The notes under the pieces are model-generated. The model saw only the letters and a list, made by a program, of their open reading frames with translations, did no database searches and was not told the DNA's origin. From a virus, in the IMG/VR virus record IMGVR_UViG_3300023235_000097, positions 1 through 29,555 of that record: a stretch of DNA of 29,555 nt, one strand, 5' to 3'. A program made the translations under genes and the position numbers. Shown here piece by piece: positions 3,606 through 25,728 of the stretch. Each line of letters starts with the position of its first letter. Within the stretch, counting starts at the first letter, position 1.

Positions 3606-6600
3606 TTATAGCCCTGTATTCCTAACGCCACCACCCTGAGCAGTTAAGGTCGTCGGGGGATTATCCTTAGGTCCGAATAGGCCACTAAATATACCGGCCA
3701 CTGGGTCACCGCCAGAGGCTATAGTTCCCATCAGTGCATTACTCGCAAAGCTGCCGATAGACTGGCCCAAGCTGGGCTGTTGCTGCGCCACATTAAAGCT
3801 CGCCCCACCATGGATGAGGCTCAATAGCTCCATTCGTCCCTCTGGCTGGAATGAGTCAATCCAATCCTCGGGGATGATCTTGAAGGTGTTACCACTGAGT
3901 ATATTCTGAACATTCTCTATGGTGGCCGTTCCTGCGCCATAGCGATCTGTCAGAAGTTCAAGTAGCTTCCCCTCGTCCATGTCGTGGATGCTGGGAGGGG
4001 CGTAGTCTCCCCTTGCCATAGTTCTTGCGATTGCCCCAAGGGCATCCCGTGCTGCCGCCGCCGCCTGATCTCCGCCATTATCCAGAAGGCGAACGAGTCC
4101 ACGGTTAAAGCCTTTGCCTTCAAGTTTCGACAGGTCTACATCCTTTAGCTGCCCACCACCCGTAACTGCCCCATCCTCGCCCACTGTAAGGTCGCTTTCA
4201 AACATGCGAGTTAGCTGTCGTTGTGCATCCTCCGGATTGGTCGCTACGAAGTCAAGGAAGTCATTTACCACAGACTGCGCCTCGCCCGTACTCCCAAACT
4301 TTGCCTTATCCACGGCCATGGTCATCATGATATTATCCAACTCGCCGCCGCGCTTGAACTCGTCTGGTGCATTTTCAGGAGTGGACAGTAGGGCCTGAAG
4401 GTCTGACGCACCTATGTCTGTGCCGCGCCCACCCATAATGCCATTCCAATACAGGTCTTCCCGATCATCCATCTTCTTCTTGGCATCCTTAGTGGCCTGC
4501 CACTGCTCGTCTGTCATTTCCGCGTTTGCAGCGGCAGTGCGCTCGGCGGCACCGAAGCGTTCCTCGAATAGATTGTTAGCTTGGATGAATTCCGCAGAGG
4601 ATAGACCACTACGCTGACGCGCCCTGTTGTCCGCCTCCGTATCACTCAGTCCCTCCTCTTTTGCCTTTTCCCACTCTGACCTTGCGGACTGCCACTTGCC
4701 CGGATCAATTCCAATCACCTCCGCTATGTCCTGCGTAGTGAGTGCCCACTGCCTGTCGGACTCGTCAATGGCCTGCGTTACCTGCTCCCACTGTAGATCA
4801 TTATTATCCGCGAACTGCTTGATCTGCGTGGCGCGATCCATGTTGCCCTGCGTTATGCGAGTCGAGAGCTCACGCGTAGCGAGCGTAGGTGCACCCTCGA
4901 CGTTTAGTGTCTCCCCGTTAAGGATGCCCAGAATCTCATTGTCTGTGGCTGCTCTCCCCGTCATGGCCGCAAATGCTTCTTTGGCTGACACTGCTTCTTG
5001 GGTTCTCAGAAGGGCTGCCGGAGGCAACTTACCCTGACCCGCGAAGCTGGAGACGTCAATCCCCAAGGTGTTCGCATCGACAGGCCCCGGACCCGTGTTA
5101 CCCGTGATCTGCGCCCAGCCCTGCTGTAGGCTTGACATTGTTTCACGCTCTGACAGGTCCATCTGACGATTAAACTGCGTGATAGTCTCCTGCCACTTCT
5201 CTTTATCCAGCCCTTCTTTAATGTTGCCATTCTCATCGAGGGCATCGCCAAAGAATTGCGCGTTGAATGTCCGCACTGTTTCGCCAAACTGCTTATCCTC
5301 GCGGATGTTCGCCTTGCCTGCCAACGTCTGCAATCGAATACCCGTCTTGGGGTCCGTCACGTAGCCCGTGCGATCGCCCACTGAGATGTTCTCATTAAGT
5401 GCCGCTGCCCTACCGGCTAACGTATCCCTGCCGCCAATCGTGCCGCCGCCCATCAGTGATATCATCTCACCGGCTGTCGGTGCACGACCACGGGCCTGCT
5501 GGAAGCCACCCTCAATATCTGTGATGGCCCTCATGTATTGGTCTATCGTAGCCCCTTCCACAAGCTGACCACTGTCATCCATGATAGAGCCAAGGTCAAC
5601 ACCAAAGCCAGAGGCATCAATTCCCTGAGTTCCGCCGAATAGCTCCGCTTCACTGAGGCCAAGCTGACCACGCTGAATGAAGTCTTGTAGGTCCATCTGC
5701 TTGCCTGCGATCGTCTGGACCCCATCAACCCTACCAATGGCCTGATCCTTCTCAAGCTGTAGCTGGTCTCGACTAAGGCCAAGCTGTCCGCGCTGAATCT
5801 CACCCGTCAAGTCCTGCGCGTCCCTCGCCAGCGTATTCTGACTACCAACTCGTCCCAGTAGCTCCTCGCGAGATAAGCTCAACTGATCCTGACCTTGTGC
5901 GAATCCAAGAATCTGCCCCAAGTTTCCTTGGTTGATTTGGTTAGCCGCAACAGATGCGCCCTCTCTTGACTCCTGCAATCCTAAGAGTAGGCCCATATTT
6001 TCACGAGTCTCTGCTCGTGTCTGTGCATCTACGCGAGTGTCGATCTCGTTTAGGGCTGACGCTCGTCCCGCCTCCAACTCCTCAAACCTGCGCTGAGCCG
6101 CACCAGATAAGCCGCCCGTATTCGGGTCCGCAAATACGCGTGCCAGCTTCGTCTGAGCAGCATCTATCTGCGTGTTGATCCTATTTTTCTCGGCTGCCCG
6201 CTGTGTGTCCGCGTTTACGCGGATTGCCTCAGCGTCCGACGAAAGTCGTTGCTCGATGCCAGACATAGCATTCCGGCCAAAGAACTGATTAGCATTACCC
6301 TGTCCAAATACCTGTGCACCACTGCCAACCGTATTCGGATTCAGTAGCCTCTTCCGGGCCTCAAGCTGAACCTCGGTGTTGGCATTGGCAAGGTTTAATT
6401 GGTTACTTTTCTGGATGGCGAGATTCTGTAGCTGTGCACGCTGATCTGCGGTAAGGTCAAATAACTCTGCCTCAGTGGGCATGATCCCACGCTCCGCCTT
6501 CTCAAAGCTGCTGATCGTCCGATCGAATCCTCCGGGGGTCATACCCGTAGTTGCTACATCGGTGGTAAGGTTCTCGTTTACGCCACGAACTCGAGACTTC

Positions 6601-8805: not shown

Positions 8806-8989
8806 CAGGATTCTCCAATTTTAAAAGGATGTCGCGCATCCCCATAAACCGCTGATACTGCGGATCGTTCGTAGCCAGAAAGTCAAGACGCTTTCCGATC
8901 TCCGCGTTGACGTCTGCCACTGAGATGCCAAGGGCTGGCTCGGGCTTCTTCGGGAAGATCGGTCCAGTGCGCTTCTGAGAGTTACTCAT
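8723..8989 (-). CDS. 88-aa hypothetical protein
   Basis: Not recognised. The N-terminus is polar and proline/lysine-rich, the middle (VADVNAEIGKRLDFLATND) looks helical, and the C-terminus is low-complexity (A, S, G, D). The ATG at 8989 has a strong GGAGGA ribosome site. It is the first gene of a leftward unit that starts after a 100-bp non-coding gap carrying palindrome copy 3, an ATTTTCTAAT motif and AT-rich sequence. The last 83 nt also encode the start of the 66-aa protein in another frame. Confidence 0.65.
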   Translation of the reverse strand: MSNSQKRTGPIFPKKPEPALGISVADVNAEIGKRLDFLATNDPQYQRFMGMRDILLKLENPDVPVQSTEVPAIGGADTSSNASEKGDS

Positions 8990-9060
8990 TGTGATTCCTC
9001 CGGTTAGGTTATATATATAATGTAATACCGTATGATCCTACATAATACTAAGTGCCCTAC

Positions 9061-14784: not shown

Positions 14785-15438
14785 TTAAAGTTCCTTCTTT
14801 ATCTGCACCATGCTCAACCCTGTGCAGGTCGGCAAGTTAACGAGACGATCTTCGAAGATGTCATGTATCACAACCTTAACGTCGGGCCATCCATAGTCAT
14901 CCGCATTGTCGAATAGGACGATGCAGTTGGGTGCGGCATGTCCTCGGACAAACTCTATCTCGGCACGAAGAGTCTCATCATCATGTGCTCCATCCAAGAA
15001 TGCGATATTGATTGGCGGCATATCATTGAAAAACTCCTCACCAAACACGGCTGGAGTCCGTCCTACGATCTTACTCAGGCGATGTAGGGATTCTTCGGGT
15101 ATAGCCCCAGATGTATCAATACCGTAGTCATGCATATCTACGGTCCATATTTCCCCTCGTCCAGATTCATCCATGCCCTCTATGAAAGCGGCAGTGCTTC
15201 GGCCCTTATGTGTGCCCGTTTCGAACACCATATCGGGTTGCGTGGATAAAACTAAGCCCTTCAGGAATGCGGCTGTCCCCTCATCTACTGAGAATAAATC
15301 AGCCTTACCCGCAATCTTTCTCGGCCATAGGACGTCCATATTCCAGAATCGGTCAGAACCCTCGAGGTGGCTACTTCTCGGCACGAGGGCACGTTGCTCA
15401 AATTCTAGGCCATGGTGTATAAAGTTCGTCTTAATCAA
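14785..15438 (-). CDS. SAM-dependent methyltransferase (class I, Methyltransf_24-like)
   Basis: A 217-aa protein with a Rossmann methyltransferase core. Motif I is VFETGTHKGRST at residues 71-82 (acidic E73, glycine-rich loop to G79). The acidic residue closing strand beta-2 is D101 (IWTVD), and FLDGAHDD at 147-154 is typical of the Methyltransf_24 / cephalosporin-hydroxylase-like group that modifies small molecules or sugars. FDNADDYG near 176-183 gives another acidic cluster. The start appears to be TTG at 15438, directly after the zinc-ribbon stop, with GGGAG 10 nt upstream. It shares a hairpin-bracketed cassette with a glycosyltransferase, so the substrate may be a glycan; that is inference. 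No DNA-methyltransferase motif such as DPPY or PCQ is present. Confidence 0.8.
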   Translation of the reverse strand: MIKTNFIHHGLEFEQRALVPRSSHLEGSDRFWNMDVLWPRKIAGKADLFSVDEGTAAFLKGLVLSTQPDMVFETGTHKGRSTAAFIEGMDESGRGEIWTVDMHDYGIDTSGAIPEESLHRLSKIVGRTPAVFGEEFFNDMPPINIAFLDGAHDDETLRAEIEFVRGHAAPNCIVLFDNADDYGWPDVKVVIHDIFEDRLVNLPTCTGLSMVQIKKEL

Positions 15439-15657
15439 TTACAAAAATCTCCCGATTTGTAGTATGAATTTACCAAACAGACTGTCTGCGTTTATAAACC
15501 ATTCGCCTGTGTCATATCGGAGCTTTAATGTTTCAAATAAGCGCGGTGGATTTGCGGGCATCCACTGTCGACCCCCGCAACTCGGACACATTTTCAGTAA
15601 GTTCCTGTTCGAGTGCAAGCCCCTCCCGCATTTGTAGCATTTCCAAATTTCTGGCAT
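15439..15657 (-). CDS. Small zinc-ribbon protein overlapping glycosyltransferase gene
   Basis: A 72-aa protein with a clean four-cysteine zinc ribbon, C7-x2-C10 and C24-x2-C27 (WKCYKCG then MCPSCGG), followed by a short basic/aromatic tail. I choose the ATG at 15657: it is preceded by GAGG with about 6-7 nt spacing, whereas the ATG four codons upstream (15669) has no ribosome site. The first 125 nt lie inside the glycosyltransferase gene in a different frame. Its stop is directly followed by the methyltransferase TTG, so it links the two enzymes in one operon. The function is unknown; zinc ribbons can bind nucleic acid or act as assembly modules. The conserved cysteine pairs make it unlikely to be a chance ORF. 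Confidence 0.7.
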   Translation of the reverse strand: MPEIWKCYKCGRGLHSNRNLLKMCPSCGGRQWMPANPPRLFETLKLRYDTGEWFINADSLFGKFILQIGRFL

Positions 15658-16366
15658 CCCGGTCCTCATATCTTTGCGTATATTCAGCTCCCATTACGGG
15701 CGCAAATCCTACGTGCGAGGCGAATACATCCGTGTCACACCAAATCTTTACGCCCTTACATTTTAGCCTATAGCAGAAATACATATCCTCTGTCCCCTGC
15801 TTGGGCATAACGAAGTAAGGTGCAGACAATCCATTCTCAGTCTCCATAGATTCGTTGTCTGTCATGCCTGTAGTGTCCTGTGCTGGAGGTCCGAATACGT
15901 CCGTCAATGCCGAAACCTTAACCAGCATACTGTGCGTCCCACCACCGTCACACTCAACAAGCCCCTTGTCCATGTCGCTCATCTTCCAGTTCTCATATTT
16001 ACTGTAGTCGTGGAAGTCGCCCGTAGGATGAGACAGCACGCCTATCTGGTGCGGCGGCTTCCTGAGTGGATAAGGAGCAACGATCACATCCTTATCGTGC
16101 TCTATGAATTTAGCGAGCATGGATGGGTCAATAATCGCATCATCATCAAGCCAGAATATATGGGTGTAGCCACCTTCTACCGCGATGTCACAGACCTGAC
16201 TCCTCGCAAAGTGAACGAATGAACGTCCCACTATCATCCAGTTGAAGTCTATATCTGCCTTATTCCACTCTACGGCGCACTCAATATGATTAGTGTGAAC
16301 CTCACTCCAGAACATATTCATATAGTTCGGAGTGCCTATCAATACCTTAGCCTTGCTCGGGTCCAA
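15533..16366 (-). CDS. Glycosyltransferase, GT-A fold type
   Basis: A 277-aa protein. The N-terminus VLIGTPNYMN opens a Rossmann-like strand. FWLDDDAIIDP at residues 71-81 holds the metal/nucleotide-sugar-binding DXD motif (D74-D76). GTEDMYFCYRLKCKGVKIW at 191-209 is the 'ED..f..r....G..i' acceptor/catalytic motif, followed by H218, as in many GT-A enzymes. The length suits a single-domain enzyme. The start appears to be TTG at 16366 with GGGAGG 5 nt upstream; palindrome 16381-16394 is just upstream of that. Its 3' end overlaps the zinc-ribbon gene by 125 nt. Likely roles are glycosylation of a virion protein, a host surface glycan or phage DNA; the sequence does not decide among them. Confidence 0.82.
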   Translation of the reverse strand: MDPSKAKVLIGTPNYMNMFWSEVHTNHIECAVEWNKADIDFNWMIVGRSFVHFARSQVCDIAVEGGYTHIFWLDDDAIIDPSMLAKFIEHDKDVIVAPYPLRKPPHQIGVLSHPTGDFHDYSKYENWKMSDMDKGLVECDGGGTHSMLVKVSALTDVFGPPAQDTTGMTDNESMETENGLSAPYFVMPKQGTEDMYFCYRLKCKGVKIWCDTDVFASHVGFAPVMGAEYTQRYEDRDARNLEMLQMREGLALEQELTENVSELRGSTVDARKSTALI

Positions 16367-21192: not shown

Positions 21193-21623
21193 TATTTTGC
21201 GCCCTTCATGCTCTTGAGTCTATTCCAAAGTTCTTTCTTCTCCGCTTTCCACTTGGCGAGCTGCTCGGAACCTACCCCACCCTCTCTAATTCTTCGGGAA
21301 AGTTCGGCCATCTTGGTATGTAGGGACTTCTCCTCATCGCTCATATTCCCACCCTCACCGCTAACGGTAAGCTTCTTGTCTGAAGCCCTACGGTTGGGGG
21401 TAGTGGTAGAATCTGACTTAGTGGAGGACGAATCCGCGCCTGTGCGCTTAGACTTTAGGGAGCTGACAATCGTATCGGCCATCACGCGCTGAAATTCTTC
21501 ACTATCTAATGGATTCTCTCCCTCTGGAGATTTTCGCATACCCTCATCGAATTCATCAATCTCATCATCCAGCTCATCAAACGCATCATCTGCTCTACTG
21601 CGTGTTCTTTCGTTGCTTGCCAT
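21192..21623 (-). CDS. 143-aa charged hypothetical protein following portal
   Basis: The N-terminal 40 residues are strongly acidic (DDAFDELDDEIDEFDEGMRK). The middle is a serine/threonine-rich linker, and the C-terminal 45 residues form a basic helix (TKMAELSRRIREGG then WKAEKKELWNRLKSMKGAK). No family recognised. TAATG junctions link it to the portal gene upstream and the 403-aa gene downstream. The arrangement of acidic and basic ends is reminiscent of small assembly factors, but the later 332-aa gene is a better scaffold candidate. Confidence 0.65.
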   Translation of the reverse strand: MASNERTRSRADDAFDELDDEIDEFDEGMRKSPEGENPLDSEEFQRVMADTIVSSLKSKRTGADSSSTKSDSTTTPNRRASDKKLTVSGEGGNMSDEEKSLHTKMAELSRRIREGGVGSEQLAKWKAEKKELWNRLKSMKGAK

Positions 21624-23722
21624 TATTGATTCGCGCCTCCAGCCCGTCCGCCTTGGTCGGAGGAGGGGCTATTGAATTGTCGAGGAAGCGCGGCCTGTCC
21701 GGGGACGGTCTGCTCTACCTCAGCGGGGTTTGGATTATTGGGATCAGGTAAGGCTCGTCCGCCTGCCTGCGTAAACTCACCCTCTGTGGGTGGTGTGGGT
21801 GCTCCGGGCGGACCACTTAGGCCACGGTTATTGCCCTCCAGTAGTTCATCTATGACACTACTACTGCCTTGCGTGCTCGCCCCGGGGATCAAGTCTTCCG
21901 GATTCTGAATGTTATACCCACGACTCAACAGCTTGGCCGCAATGGCCGGTAAATTAGGTGCCGCACCATACTCCTCTTTCCACAACCCAGTCAAGCCACT
22001 GAAGAGGTTGAGGAGGTCGAGCCAATTCTTGCGTTCTAAGCTCACCGCATTGGCCTGCGATGCCACATCCATCGTAAATCTGTATTCTCCACGGGCTGTC
22101 TGCTCGTCGACATTCATCCATAACTCTGCTTGGGGATCAATGAGGAAGGCTCGATCGGGTCGGAAGAACACGGTCATCTGCCAGAACTTGCGCGATGTGT
22201 TAATCTGCATCTTAGACAAGAGGTTTCCGCGTCGAGATTCCCGCGCCGTAGTCCGTCTCTCTGTGATGCTGGCCTCTGTGGCAGTTTCAATACCTCGCTG
22301 CATGGGCTGTGGCGCACCGGCACTATCGTCAAATAATCCACGGATAATCTGTAAGAGCTGTCCGCTATCGCTGTTGATACTCCCAAACTCAAGGGGTCGT
22401 AGGACATTGTTCCCATTCTCAGCCAGTCCCCGGATGGATATTGCGCTCATATCGGGCGTAGATAGAATGTTGTCCACGACATCATCGTCTACGTGATCGG
22501 GATCATACAGTAGGATATTCTTATTCTTACGGATCACATTGAGATAAGAGTCAAGAATTTCATTGGCGAGTCCTTGCACGCTATCCGCACCGGCCATTAA
22601 TAGGGCGGGTTTGGAGAACCATGAGTCCATCGTATGGTTCATGCTTAGAATCTCAGCCGGATAATCATCCAGATCAGGTAGTGGCCACTCCGTCTCGTGC
22701 TGTAGGAACTTATCGTGCCCCGTAGCCATCGTTATCAACATGTTCTTACGCATGCTCTTAGTGTAATGGAAGCTACGTGCCCAAATCTCCCAGCCTTCTA
22801 CGAGGCCAAAATCATCCTCAACCCCATCGCGCTTTTCGAGGGCGTCATCCATTCGAACCGTAGACTCAAGTTTGTCTGTGTTTGTATAGTTACGGTTGGC
22901 TTGGATTTCACCGACGGGCCGCTTGAATCGGAAGGCGATCCAGCGTGCATCTCTAAGTCCATCTTGCGCGAGGGGGTCAACGAGGAAGTCTCGAGGATTC
23001 CAACGTAGGCCATAGGGGGCTTCCCACTGGACACTACTATTGGTATCGGGGTCTATCTCTTCATCAAATTTACCACGGGTCCGAATATTATCCTTAATGA
23101 GTTCCTCAATCTCCGGCTCCAGCTCAACTTCGGGCTGCTGCAAGAATTCTGTGAACCCTTCAATGTAGGTAGGATGATCCTGATCTCGGGTTATCTTGGG
23201 GAATTCACCCTCCAGCATGGCAAGAAGTTCCTGAGTAGGATCGTCATATACGAATCCATCGGGGTTGATGGTGTCCTCTTGCCTTGACTTCTCATCCAGC
23301 GTCCATCCGAGCTTCTTAACACCGAATGGACCCAAGAAGGAGTCTAAGAGTATTCGTTCATCCTGTGCTAATTGCTCCGTCTCGCGATACCAGTAGTCAG
23401 AAATCGCCTTAACGGCACCGGAACCACCAGAGGATGTCCGGGTGCGGGGCGTAACGAGAAAGCTGGGGTTGCGCTCGAGAAGATTAGCAATGGATTGGTC
23501 GATCCAGCCGAAGATTAGATTAGACTTAACGCGTGCGAGGTGTGCATCGCCATGCGTAGCTTCATCTTCGGAGAACTGCTCACGATCGGATGACGCCTCG
23601 TTGACATACATCAACTCAAGGGTCCGAGAGGCTTGCCAGATGGGCTCCATGACTCGCTCGGCGTGCTCTATCTGACGACGCCAATACTCTACGCGGGCCA
23701 GCTCTCCAGATGGATAAGCCAT
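21623..23722 (-). CDS. Portal protein
   Basis: A 699-aa protein next after terminase in the leftward order. The N-terminus is helical (YWRRQIEHAERVMEPIWQAS) and followed by 'NLIFGWIDQSIANLLERNPSF' (residues about 69-89), the portal pattern of membrane-distal helices. The core contains YGLRWNPRDFLVDPLAQDG (about 232-250) and DARWIAFRFKRPVGEI, which I know from portal proteins of P22-like and other short-tailed phages ('p.dfl.Dp.a......a.wia'). A helical crown-like region and a disordered G/P/S-rich C-terminal tail follow. Length fits large podovirus portals. The ATG at 23722 follows AAAGG. Palindrome 23736-23749 lies 13 bp upstream. Confidence 0.85.
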   Translation of the reverse strand: MAYPSGELARVEYWRRQIEHAERVMEPIWQASRTLELMYVNEASSDREQFSEDEATHGDAHLARVKSNLIFGWIDQSIANLLERNPSFLVTPRTRTSSGGSGAVKAISDYWYRETEQLAQDERILLDSFLGPFGVKKLGWTLDEKSRQEDTINPDGFVYDDPTQELLAMLEGEFPKITRDQDHPTYIEGFTEFLQQPEVELEPEIEELIKDNIRTRGKFDEEIDPDTNSSVQWEAPYGLRWNPRDFLVDPLAQDGLRDARWIAFRFKRPVGEIQANRNYTNTDKLESTVRMDDALEKRDGVEDDFGLVEGWEIWARSFHYTKSMRKNMLITMATGHDKFLQHETEWPLPDLDDYPAEILSMNHTMDSWFSKPALLMAGADSVQGLANEILDSYLNVIRKNKNILLYDPDHVDDDVVDNILSTPDMSAISIRGLAENGNNVLRPLEFGSINSDSGQLLQIIRGLFDDSAGAPQPMQRGIETATEASITERRTTARESRRGNLLSKMQINTSRKFWQMTVFFRPDRAFLIDPQAELWMNVDEQTARGEYRFTMDVASQANAVSLERKNWLDLLNLFSGLTGLWKEEYGAAPNLPAIAAKLLSRGYNIQNPEDLIPGASTQGSSSVIDELLEGNNRGLSGPPGAPTPPTEGEFTQAGGRALPDPNNPNPAEVEQTVPGQAALPRQFNSPSSDQGGRAGGANQ

Positions 23723-23766: not shown

Positions 23767-23818
23767 TAAGATACACTATAATAAAAGGCGTGTTGGTAAT
23801 ACCGTGTTATTTTCTAAT
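23767..23818. promoter_or_regulatory. Composite element: TAAGATACACTAT - N29 - ATTTTCTAAT
   Basis: TAAGATACACTAT (23767-23779) and ATTTTCTAAT (23809-23818) are separated by exactly 29 bp, as at 19663-19714 (one mismatch in the 13-mer). The inner 10-mer abuts the CCA end of the tmRNA-like RNA. The element lies upstream of the portal gene on the minus strand, so a promoter or processing role there is likely. Confidence 0.55.
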
Positions 23819-23900
23819 GGTGGAGGCGGCGGGAATTGCACCCGCGTCTTACGGGGTCCACCGTGTGGTCTTGACCCGTAATCGACACTATTTCACCCCC
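23818..23900 (-). ncRNA. tmRNA-like tRNA domain without tag-coding segment (83 nt)
   Basis: Reading the minus strand, GGGGGTG (23900-23894) pairs with CGCCTCC (23828-23822) in a seven-pair acceptor stem that includes G3-U70, the identity pair read by alanyl-tRNA synthetase. A-CCA (23821-23818) completes the 3' end. The T arm is GCGGG / TGCAATT / CCCGC (23845-23829); its loop fits the consensus except G at position 55. There is no D stem: instead TCGA (23885-23882) lies 8 nt after the acceptor, as in the UUCGAC region of tmRNA. A 7-bp helix TTACGGG / CCCGTAA (23881-23875, 23855-23849) corresponds to tmRNA helix P2 but is closed by only 19 nt, with no tag reading frame or pseudoknots. The 3' 30 nt closely resemble bacterial ssrA ends. 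The 5' end overlaps the stop region of the 117-aa gene. A degenerate tRNA or an ssrA-derived attachment site are alternatives. Confidence 0.65.
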
Positions 23901-24241
23901 CGATTCACGCTATACGCCATTTTCCTTGCCTTGGCGTACATGATACCCATGAGACTACTTAAACTCATATTACTCCTACGCTCGGCACTTGATATTGCAA
24001 ATTGGCAGCAATAATTCGAGTCCAATCTGTAGGTGTATATGATTGCATCCATACCTAATGGTCGACCCGACCCAATGAATGTTAAGTCCGGATGGCTCAT
24101 AGCCCCTGTAATTGGATCGTATTCAAATAGCTCCGGGTTTATATGCGGATCACTAAATGCGGCAACGAACTGTTCTAATGTTATATCACTATCGAGCCCC
24201 GACTCCGCTTCCCCTTGCGTCCCCTTCGATGGTTTGTCCAT
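23888..24241 (-). CDS. 117-aa hypothetical protein after large terminase
   Basis: Not recognised. The N-terminal 25 residues are polar. Residues about 35-60 include LFEYDPITGAMSHPDLTFIG, faintly like the 'ydp.tG.l' opening of some phage HNH/AP2 proteins, but the catalytic H-N-H residues are absent, so I do not assign that function. The C-terminus is basic. The ATG at 24241 lies 61 nt inside the terminase gene in another frame, with GGGGGAG very close upstream. Its last codons form the 5' acceptor strand of the tmRNA-like RNA, so the RNA is probably cut from this transcript. Confidence 0.5.
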   Translation of the reverse strand: MDKPSKGTQGEAESGLDSDITLEQFVAAFSDPHINPELFEYDPITGAMSHPDLTFIGSGRPLGMDAIIYTYRLDSNYCCQFAISSAERRSNMSLSSLMGIMYAKARKMAYSVNRGVK

Positions 24242-25728
24242 ATCTCCCCCATGGTTGTCGGTTCTAATTCTTGCGTCCTTATGTGCGCTAATGCCTTGGC
24301 AGGGCTCAACTTATCAAGCATCCGGCCAATGAGCGATAGCGTATCCACCATATCATCATTTGACCCAGCCGGAAAGCGGGTAAGCTCGTGCATCAGGTCT
24401 GGCATCCACTTGGCGTTACGTGGAAACTTGACCATGTTCATGGACATCCGCGCCTGTATGGACCGTGCGCGTGAGGACTTATCCGATGAACTCGTGAATG
24501 CATCCCGAAACACATAGGCCCGGCGTTCTCTCATCCGCTGTGTAATAAATGGGCCCACACTCTTGATGATCTGCCCTGACTCCTCAGCCCATCGTAAGGG
24601 CTTCCACTTCTCAGTAAGGTCAATGAAGGCATCTATCCATAGGTCTGTCTTAGTCTGTTCGCGCCATAGGTCCAGCAGGTATATCTCGTCGTTATTATCT
24701 ACACCGATGATTAGATGGACCGTAAAGTCACCTCCATCTGCGGTCACAGCATAGTCACTGGCACCGTATATGTGCATAGGATGCTTGCCGCGATTATAAT
24801 CATCCAGCACTTGACTATCATCGAAGTAATTATCCTCGATCCACTTCCGTTCAAAATACTCCCCTTGATCCCCAACTGGTTTTTGTTGATATAGTGCCGA
24901 CCATTCTCGTGCCCCAATGGTTCGGCGTGTCCTTTCTAAAGTCTCCAAGGGGAACCACTCAGGCCATAATGCATCCCCCTGTGCACGCCCAAGAATATCG
25001 TCCCCCTCCGCGATGGCGGGGAAGTCAACGGTCTCCCAGCGTTCTCCGCCCATCTCCATGTCGCGCAACAACCTACCCGTAAGATCGTCATCATGCCATC
25101 GGGTCTGAATCACCACTATAGCGGCGTTGGGGGCTTGACGGGTATATAAAACAGAGCGATACCAGTCCCATGCACGCTCTCTACTGAGGCGCGAGTCTGC
25201 ATCTTCGCGTGACTTGATAGGATCATCAATCAGGAGGAGGGAGCCACCCCTCCCAGTGAGGCCCCCTCCTATGCCTGCCGCACGGTATCCGCCCCCGGTT
25301 GTCACGGACCATCTATCGGCAGCTCTGTCTGACGATTTTATTCTAACTTCTGGAAAAACGTTGTTGAAAAGTGGTCCTGAGATGGTATCTCGGACGGCGC
25401 GGCCAAACTCGGACGCCAACTCGGCATTATAGGTGGCGCATATAATCTCATCTCGGGGCCGACGACCAAGAAAGTAGGCCGGTAGCTTGCGTGAGGCCAT
25501 CTCAGACTTGCCGTGGCGGGGTGGCATTGTGATAATCAATCGCCTCGTCTTACCACTGATGACCGACTCCAGCTTGTCCGATAGATACGTGTGGTGTGCA
25601 GCGGCTTGAAAGTCGGGCTTGGTATATTTAACGAACCCCATCAACGAGTCGCGTGCCTGTGAGCGAGCCAAGAACTCAGCGGCCAGCTCATCTTCCCGTA
25701 TGGCGTCAATCGTCCTCGTCTTACTCAA
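24181..25728 (-). CDS. terL: Terminase large subunit
   Basis: A 515-aa DNA-packaging motor. The ATPase domain has a Walker A-type loop MPPRHGKSE (residues 68-76), Walker B LLLIDDP (164-170) and a coupling-type segment VVIQTRWHDDD (205-215). The C-terminal RNase H-like nuclease domain shows ASDYAVTADGGD (323-334, D325 first metal ligand), WAEES (380-384) and SNDDMVDTLS (456-465) for the remaining acidic ligands. Length and motif spacing are normal for the family. The frame begins at TTG 25728, which overlaps the previous stop by 8 nt; no clear ribosome site precedes it, and the first in-frame ATG (25641) would remove 29 residues before the conserved region. It pairs with the small-terminase-like gene at 27683-28474, which lies apart on the far side of opposite-strand genes. 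Confidence 0.93.
   Translation of the reverse strand: MSKTRTIDAIREDELAAEFLARSQARDSLMGFVKYTKPDFQAAAHHTYLSDKLESVISGKTRRLIITMPPRHGKSEMASRKLPAYFLGRRPRDEIICATYNAELASEFGRAVRDTISGPLFNNVFPEVRIKSSDRAADRWSVTTGGGYRAAGIGGGLTGRGGSLLLIDDPIKSREDADSRLSRERAWDWYRSVLYTRQAPNAAIVVIQTRWHDDDLTGRLLRDMEMGGERWETVDFPAIAEGDDILGRAQGDALWPEWFPLETLERTRRTIGAREWSALYQQKPVGDQGEYFERKWIEDNYFDDSQVLDDYNRGKHPMHIYGASDYAVTADGGDFTVHLIIGVDNNDEIYLLDLWREQTKTDLWIDAFIDLTEKWKPLRWAEESGQIIKSVGPFITQRMRERRAYVFRDAFTSSSDKSSRARSIQARMSMNMVKFPRNAKWMPDLMHELTRFPAGSNDDMVDTLSLIGRMLDKLSPAKALAHIRTQELEPTTMGEIWTNHRRGRKGKRSRGSIVI

Follow-up and report, generated by a model that had tools for sequence, protein, structure and literature searches.

A short tag-less tmRNA-like RNA near a phage terminase gene belongs to a widespread, conserved family and may act as a decoy of trans-translation

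We analyzed a stretch of viral DNA of 29,555 nucleotides (IMG/VR record IMGVR_UViG_3300023235_000097; hereafter the window), in which four features follow one another in a single direction on the minus strand: the gene for the terminase large subunit (TerL; 24181-25728; phrog_38, E 6.7e-115), an open reading frame (ORF) of 117 aa (23888-24241), an 83-nt RNA running from 23900 to 23818, and an ORF of 699 aa (21623-23722). Neither ORF had a PHROG match, and the 699-aa product is a putative portal by position only, after the TerL-portal order in phage Pam1. The first 13 nt of the RNA (23888-23900) overlap the stop and last codons of the 117-aa ORF, in agreement with the initial annotation, which had placed the 5' end of the RNA within the end of a gene. 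The nearest isolates by TerL (Pam1 at 48.7%, CBW1004C-Prop1, and Mwe-JY13) carried no copy of the RNA. Elsewhere in the window, two minus-strand ORFs in the structural region resemble, by eye, a class I methyltransferase (14785-15438) and a glycosyltransferase (15533-16366).

Bacteria free stuck ribosomes by means of tmRNA, whose messenger domain of about 300 nt tags the faulty proteins, and the RNA in the window corresponds to the tRNA-like domain (TLD) of this molecule, with a hairpin capping its helix P2. All parts that the initial annotation had listed were found on the minus strand. A 7-bp acceptor stem is formed by GGGGGTG (23894-23900, with G3 at 23898) and CGCCTCC, which carries U70 at 23824 and is followed by the discriminator A and an encoded CCA (23818-23828). 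Downstream of the acceptor 5' strand, there is no D stem but a reduced D region (23882-23893) made of an 8-nt linker, AAATAGTG, and TCGA, in which position 23883 aligns with G19 of E. coli tmRNA, a contact nucleotide of SmpB (PMC8363625). The 7-bp helix P2 (TTACGGG, 23875-23881, with CCCGTAA, 23849-23855) is closed by 19 nt, TCAAGACCACACGGTGGAC, and this cap holds a further 4-bp hairpin, CCAC-ACG-GTGG (23858-23868), that the annotation had not described. The trinucleotide GAC (23846-23848), including the equivalent of A334, then leads directly into the T arm, GCGGG-TGCAATT-CCCGC (23829-23845), with its perfect 5-bp stem. The TLD is thus contiguous and unpermuted, includes both strands of the acceptor, and lacks a coding insert: the messenger domain (resume codon, tag, and stop) and the pseudoknots are absent from the sequence. 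The SmpB-contact nucleotides U17, G19, and A334 were all present in the alignment, as expected from the SmpB binding that had been proposed.

Upon scanning both strands with Rfam cmscan (4227 families), we found that the RNA aligned end to end with the tmRNA model RF00023 (model positions 1-374; 43.6 bits, E 2.2e-14), which bears out its initial identification as a bare tmRNA TLD without a tag frame. This score lies just below the RF00023 gathering score of 47, which most relatives of the RNA exceed, and ARAGORN called neither a tRNA nor a tmRNA in the window RNA. Its fold energy had a z score of -2.1, with 6 of 200 shuffles folding equally well, and it scored 66.3 bits with R1, a covariance model of our own. 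As an identical stretch occurs on a second IMG/VR contig of 14.9 kb from the same phage, the RNA is not an artefact of a single assembly. Two other identities were considered and rejected: a permuted two-piece tmRNA (RF04321), given the unpermuted order of the acceptor strands and a score of only 21.6 bits against a threshold of 47, and an ordinary tRNA, given the absent D stem, the cap loop of 3 nt, and the silence of ARAGORN.

Scanning IMG/VR for patterns in which TCGA is followed at a short distance by a T arm revealed many RNAs of like build. The first pattern proved too loose, as most of its matches were ordinary tRNAs or the 3' ends of regular tmRNAs; the true members were sorted out by their pairing in acceptor and P2, and afterwards by their scores with model R1, for which 21 RNAs had been used. 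Patterns that were stricter or shifted yielded 34, 37, and at least 120 contigs. As the variable linker (7 to 9 nt) led MAFFT to misalign the acceptor, we used an alignment, A2, with N padding in the linker. Accepted members scored 46-89 bits with R1, and tRNAs and tmRNA 3' ends mostly below 45. Among the matches listed in the last scan, R1 recovered all 82 new loci (49-85 bits), which had been selected on the D region, GGAC, and T arm only and none of which had entered model building. Combining both sets, we obtained at least 112 distinct RNAs of 67-99 nt with the same architecture. Distinct sequences were used where possible, since counts are inflated by related contigs; three borderline cases were excluded from the counts (L048, 48.0 bits; L090, 45.5; L011, 44.6), whereas phage Tomas (46.5 bits) was counted on grounds of synteny and L110 (52.9 bits) despite an unusual D region. 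When 84,980 genomes of bacteria and archaea were scanned with a comparable pattern, 9 matches emerged, 8 of them ordinary tmRNAs and the ninth a short form (L166) on a 17.8-kb contig of an Anaerolineae metagenome-assembled genome (WGEI01000061.1) with phage-like primase and exonuclease genes; the full tmRNA and SmpB of that genome lie on other contigs. The L166 RNA is capped by a GCGA tetraloop.

The stems of these RNAs covary strongly. In an independent set of 54 distinct rows, 96.3% of the pair cells were standard pairs, and the covariation reached 0.675, compared to 0.137 after shuffling and at most 0.10 with the partner strand slid; the first set gave 0.635 against 0.152 when shuffled. Strong covariation was found in the acceptor, P2, cap, and T stems, and changes in the acceptor and P2 strands, on which homologues of the RNA were to be judged, were compensated in the relatives. 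Within the acceptor, every Watson-Crick type was seen at pairs 4-69, 5-68, and 6-67 among the 112 distinct RNAs, and both alanylation determinants that had been noted in the window RNA were invariant, with G3.U70 as well as the discriminator A73 present in 112 of 112, window included. As the acceptor lay outside the search patterns, this invariance is not circular for the members found by pattern. The SmpB-contact nucleotides were likewise kept: G19 and A20 occurred in 58 of the 58 RNAs of alignment A3, A334 in 58, and U17 in 56, a conservation that is partly built in, as the D region and GGAC belonged to the search patterns. Members that came from BLAST or from the cap motif, among them those of phages Riptide (UUAGAU) and BRock (UUUGAC), kept G19 while other letters changed. 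Cryo-EM of tmRNA-SmpB on the ribosome had placed Trp122 of SmpB in a pocket of A15, U17, and A334, with G19 packing against SmpB and a G19-to-C change preventing binding (PMC8363625). Both the identity of this RNA and the selection on it are shown by these analyses.

The P2 cap usually combines an A-rich bulge with a CCNC..GNGG-like hairpin, a motif whose simple form occurs in 86 of the 112 RNAs; a k-turn and a copied PK1 were considered as sources of the A-rich cap and dropped for lack of support. A few members have larger caps with several hairpins or longer loops (L008 6256-6349, L037 1893-1991, and L041 5428-5515), which could possibly be intermediates between a full tmRNA and the short form. 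One contig (L123, IMGVR_UViG_3300038314_000673) holds two short RNAs that differ from each other (75 and 57 bits) and are separated by 3.5 kb, one of them at 5108-5183 of the locus (8940-9015 of the contig). A weaker match in the Stenotrophomonas phage vB_Sm_QDWS359 (L173 1963-2047; 41 bits with R1, and 36 bits over 124 nt with RF00023) lies near tRNA genes and TerL and may represent a form that has diverged or is in decay.

The carriers are unrelated tailed phages. Their TerLs belong to several PHROG families (phrog_38, 675, 2, and 9), their neighboring genes include exonuclease, primase, DnaB, protease, and HK97-type head genes, and, upon comparing the proteins of the window with 18 carrier stretches, we found SSB to be the sole protein in common. 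In seven cultured Streptomyces phages (LuckySocke, GiJojo, pSt2308, BRock, Alone3, Riptide, and Tomas), the RNA stands directly after tRNA-Val(tac) in a tRNA cluster, where it is not annotated as an RNA; the same arrangement occurs in Naboo, whose record has no annotation. In two further loci (L254 and L057) the RNA lies 2-4 nt away from tRNA genes, and in many carriers no tRNA gene is close by. In Riptide, Tomas, and Naboo, the short RNA is accompanied by a separate full-length tmRNA, with 11 kb between the two in Riptide (short RNA, L172 1977-2056; full tmRNA with the tag ANSKFAFALAA, L177 1501-1767). A gene for SmpB was sought in 28 carrier phage records and in the window, and none was found.

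A TATAAT-like box with at least 5 matches stands exactly 6 nt upstream of G1 in 11 of 111 RNAs, compared to 0-2 at other gaps, which suggests that transcription may start at the mature 5' end (G1) in this group; loci with the box include L036, L230, L239, L240, L243, L256, L260, L270, L275, and L290, on contigs that are partly related and in which we saw no clear -35 box. As in the window, the stop codon of an upstream ORF overlaps the start of the RNA in up to 19 further distinct loci, although some of these ORFs are mechanical calls only. In a number of loci (L003, L009, L013, L021, L032, L092, L093, L123, L128, L129, L138, and L296), an upstream TAG stop shares its G with nucleotide 1 of the RNA. 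At these loci, the upstream mRNA would become a non-stop message once the RNA matures. In Carsonella, smpB and ssrA were reported to overlap in a similar way (PMC4131195).

On balance, and with moderate confidence, we infer that the RNA is most likely a dominant-negative TLD, a decoy that, charged with alanine and bound to SmpB, gets into stalled ribosomes and prevents tagging. It would be released from the late transcript through tRNA processing, charged with alanine by the host AlaRS, and bound by the EF-Tu and SmpB of the host. The charged RNA would then reach ribosomes that have stalled with no codon in the A site and compete there with host tmRNA. As it lacks a resume codon, the nascent chain cannot be tagged, and trans-translation would be blocked or left unfinished. 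Where an upstream ORF overlaps the RNA, as it does in the window and in up to 19 further loci, processing may also trim the end of the upstream mRNA and thereby yield non-stop messages. For this decoy function, we count the full-length match to RF00023 minus the messenger domain, the recovery of every new locus by R1, the covarying stems, the conserved charging and SmpB-contact nucleotides, the sites in tRNA arrays, and the lack of a phage SmpB in the records searched. The published precedent of mycobacteriophage DS6A supports, by analogy, an inhibition of tmRNA: its tmRNA was listed as 'TLD only' (Hudson et al. 2014, PMC4131195; tmID 11587), and, as summarized in later accounts, a DS6A-like molecule is a strong inhibitor of tmRNA in E. 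coli, irrespective of whether it can be charged, perhaps by titration of SmpB (PMC4131195 citing Mao et al. 2009; for the inhibition, also PMC11915505). The initial annotation, which did not cite DS6A, had proposed either a decoy or a ribosome-rescue variant; the decoy has thereby gained a precedent.

Three observations count against the decoy. As the inhibition was reported for charged and uncharged molecules alike, a pure SmpB sponge would not need G3.U70 to be so strictly conserved; to us, this invariance favors a charged molecule that would work on the ribosome over a plain sponge. Second, the full tmRNA in Riptide, Tomas, and Naboo is one that a decoy should hinder, unless the timing of the two RNAs differs. 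Third, the nearest isolates by TerL do without the RNA.

The first two of these observations also lend some weight to the main rival, tag-less rescue, in which the alanylated RNA and SmpB would free stalled ribosomes, with the chain moved onto alanine and the ribosome leaving by host release factors or by drop-off, such that the phage regains ribosomes and its own proteins are spared tagging and degradation. The invariance of G3.U70 and A73 would be of consequence only for an RNA that is charged and put to use by the ribosome, a short RNA and a full tmRNA could then well exist together in the three Streptomyces phages, and mitochondrial tmRNAs without a tag persist alongside SmpB, with a suggested part in dealing with incomplete mRNAs (PMC11915505). 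However, a TLD-only RNA is, in the summarized experiments, reported to inhibit tmRNA rather than replace it, and no release step is known that dispenses with a resume and a stop codon, which makes tag-less rescue possible but rather unlikely. A related reading, which we put forward tentatively and also regard as unlikely, is that this widespread messenger-less phage RNA, once alanylated and bound to the SmpB of the host, would add an untemplated alanine without a tag in stalled ribosomes, whereby ribosomes might be freed for the phage or chains might be tailed in repeated rounds. Here too the invariant G3.U70 pair is pertinent, as it suggests that charging may be under selection, which is not required of a mere SmpB sponge.

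It is improbable that the RNA, as a tRNA mimic without an anticodon loop, serves as a decoy against host defenses that target tRNA or tmRNA, or as an alanine donor for a non-ribosomal reaction. In the Streptomyces phages, the tRNA arrays lie near RNA ligase genes, which is a setting of tRNA repair, and anticodon nucleases should not cut an RNA that has no anticodon loop, but the SmpB-specific nucleotides G19, U17, and A334 would be needless for such roles and tRNA genes are missing near the RNA of many carriers. Finally, although tmRNA genes serve prophages as integration sites (PMC10865867) and one group (L153) has an integrase gene near the RNA, an attachment site, a captured fragment of host ssrA, or a decaying, functionless tmRNA gene is highly improbable, as both TLD halves are present, and not just the 3' half that the initial annotation had named as the mark of an attachment site, as all stems show compensatory changes in the relatives, as the RNA of the window is flanked by TerL upstream and the 699-aa ORF downstream, as the RNA of the Streptomyces carriers has tRNA arrays around it but no integrase next to it, and as the short form occurs in only 1 of the 84,980 bacterial and archaeal genomes, on the contig with phage-like replication genes.

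Returning to the decoy and its implications, at least 112 distinct, covarying tag-less RNAs, nearly all in unrelated phage contigs, compare with 9 unpermuted tag-less ('standard, no CDS') forms in the 2025 tmRNA database, which also contains 79 phage sequences (PMC11915505); this suggests that interfering with trans-translation, or sidestepping it, is a common phage strategy. The invariant charging nucleotides argue that the RNA would act on the ribosome and do more than titrate SmpB. The family also accounts for RNAs that standard annotation overlooked, even within carefully curated tRNA arrays, and the cultured carrier phages make the question experimentally accessible; for Streptomyces, strains of S. 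coelicolor deleted for smpB or ssrA have been described (PMC2635970).

Among known systems, the RNA shares with tmRNA (RF00023) the G3.U70 acceptor, A73, the reduced D region with UCGAC, GGAC, the T arm, and the start of P2, whereas it lacks the messenger domain, the tag, H5, and the pseudoknots, and is 83 nt long instead of 230-400, with a hairpin closing P2 after 7-8 bp in the short RNAs. Full phage tmRNAs, such as those of Riptide, Tomas, and Patelgo, are likewise phage-borne and have the same TLD, but are about 270 nt long and encode a tag such as ANSKFAFALAA. The tag-less tmRNAs of mitochondria (RF02544) and of Mallomonadaceae plastids (two cases of about 65 bp in the 2025 database; PMC11915505) also keep the TLD without a tag reading frame, yet they are organellar, the mitochondrial genes are usually permuted, and no decoy role was proposed for them in the literature that we compared. 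The closest counterpart is the TLD-only RNA of DS6A, which, by its published description, is of the same kind; it is the one phage tag-less case named in the text of the 2025 database (PMC11915505) and the sole phage example in the literature compared, set against the at least 112 distinct RNAs of this build described here. In the literature on tag-less tmRNA that we compared, we found no account of their spread in phages, of the conserved cap, of the invariant charging pair, or of coexistence with a full tmRNA in one phage. Overall, the RNA in the window joins the already known DS6A type and is no categorically new kind; what is new is that such TLD-only RNAs are widespread and conserved, and stand in some phages beside a full tmRNA.
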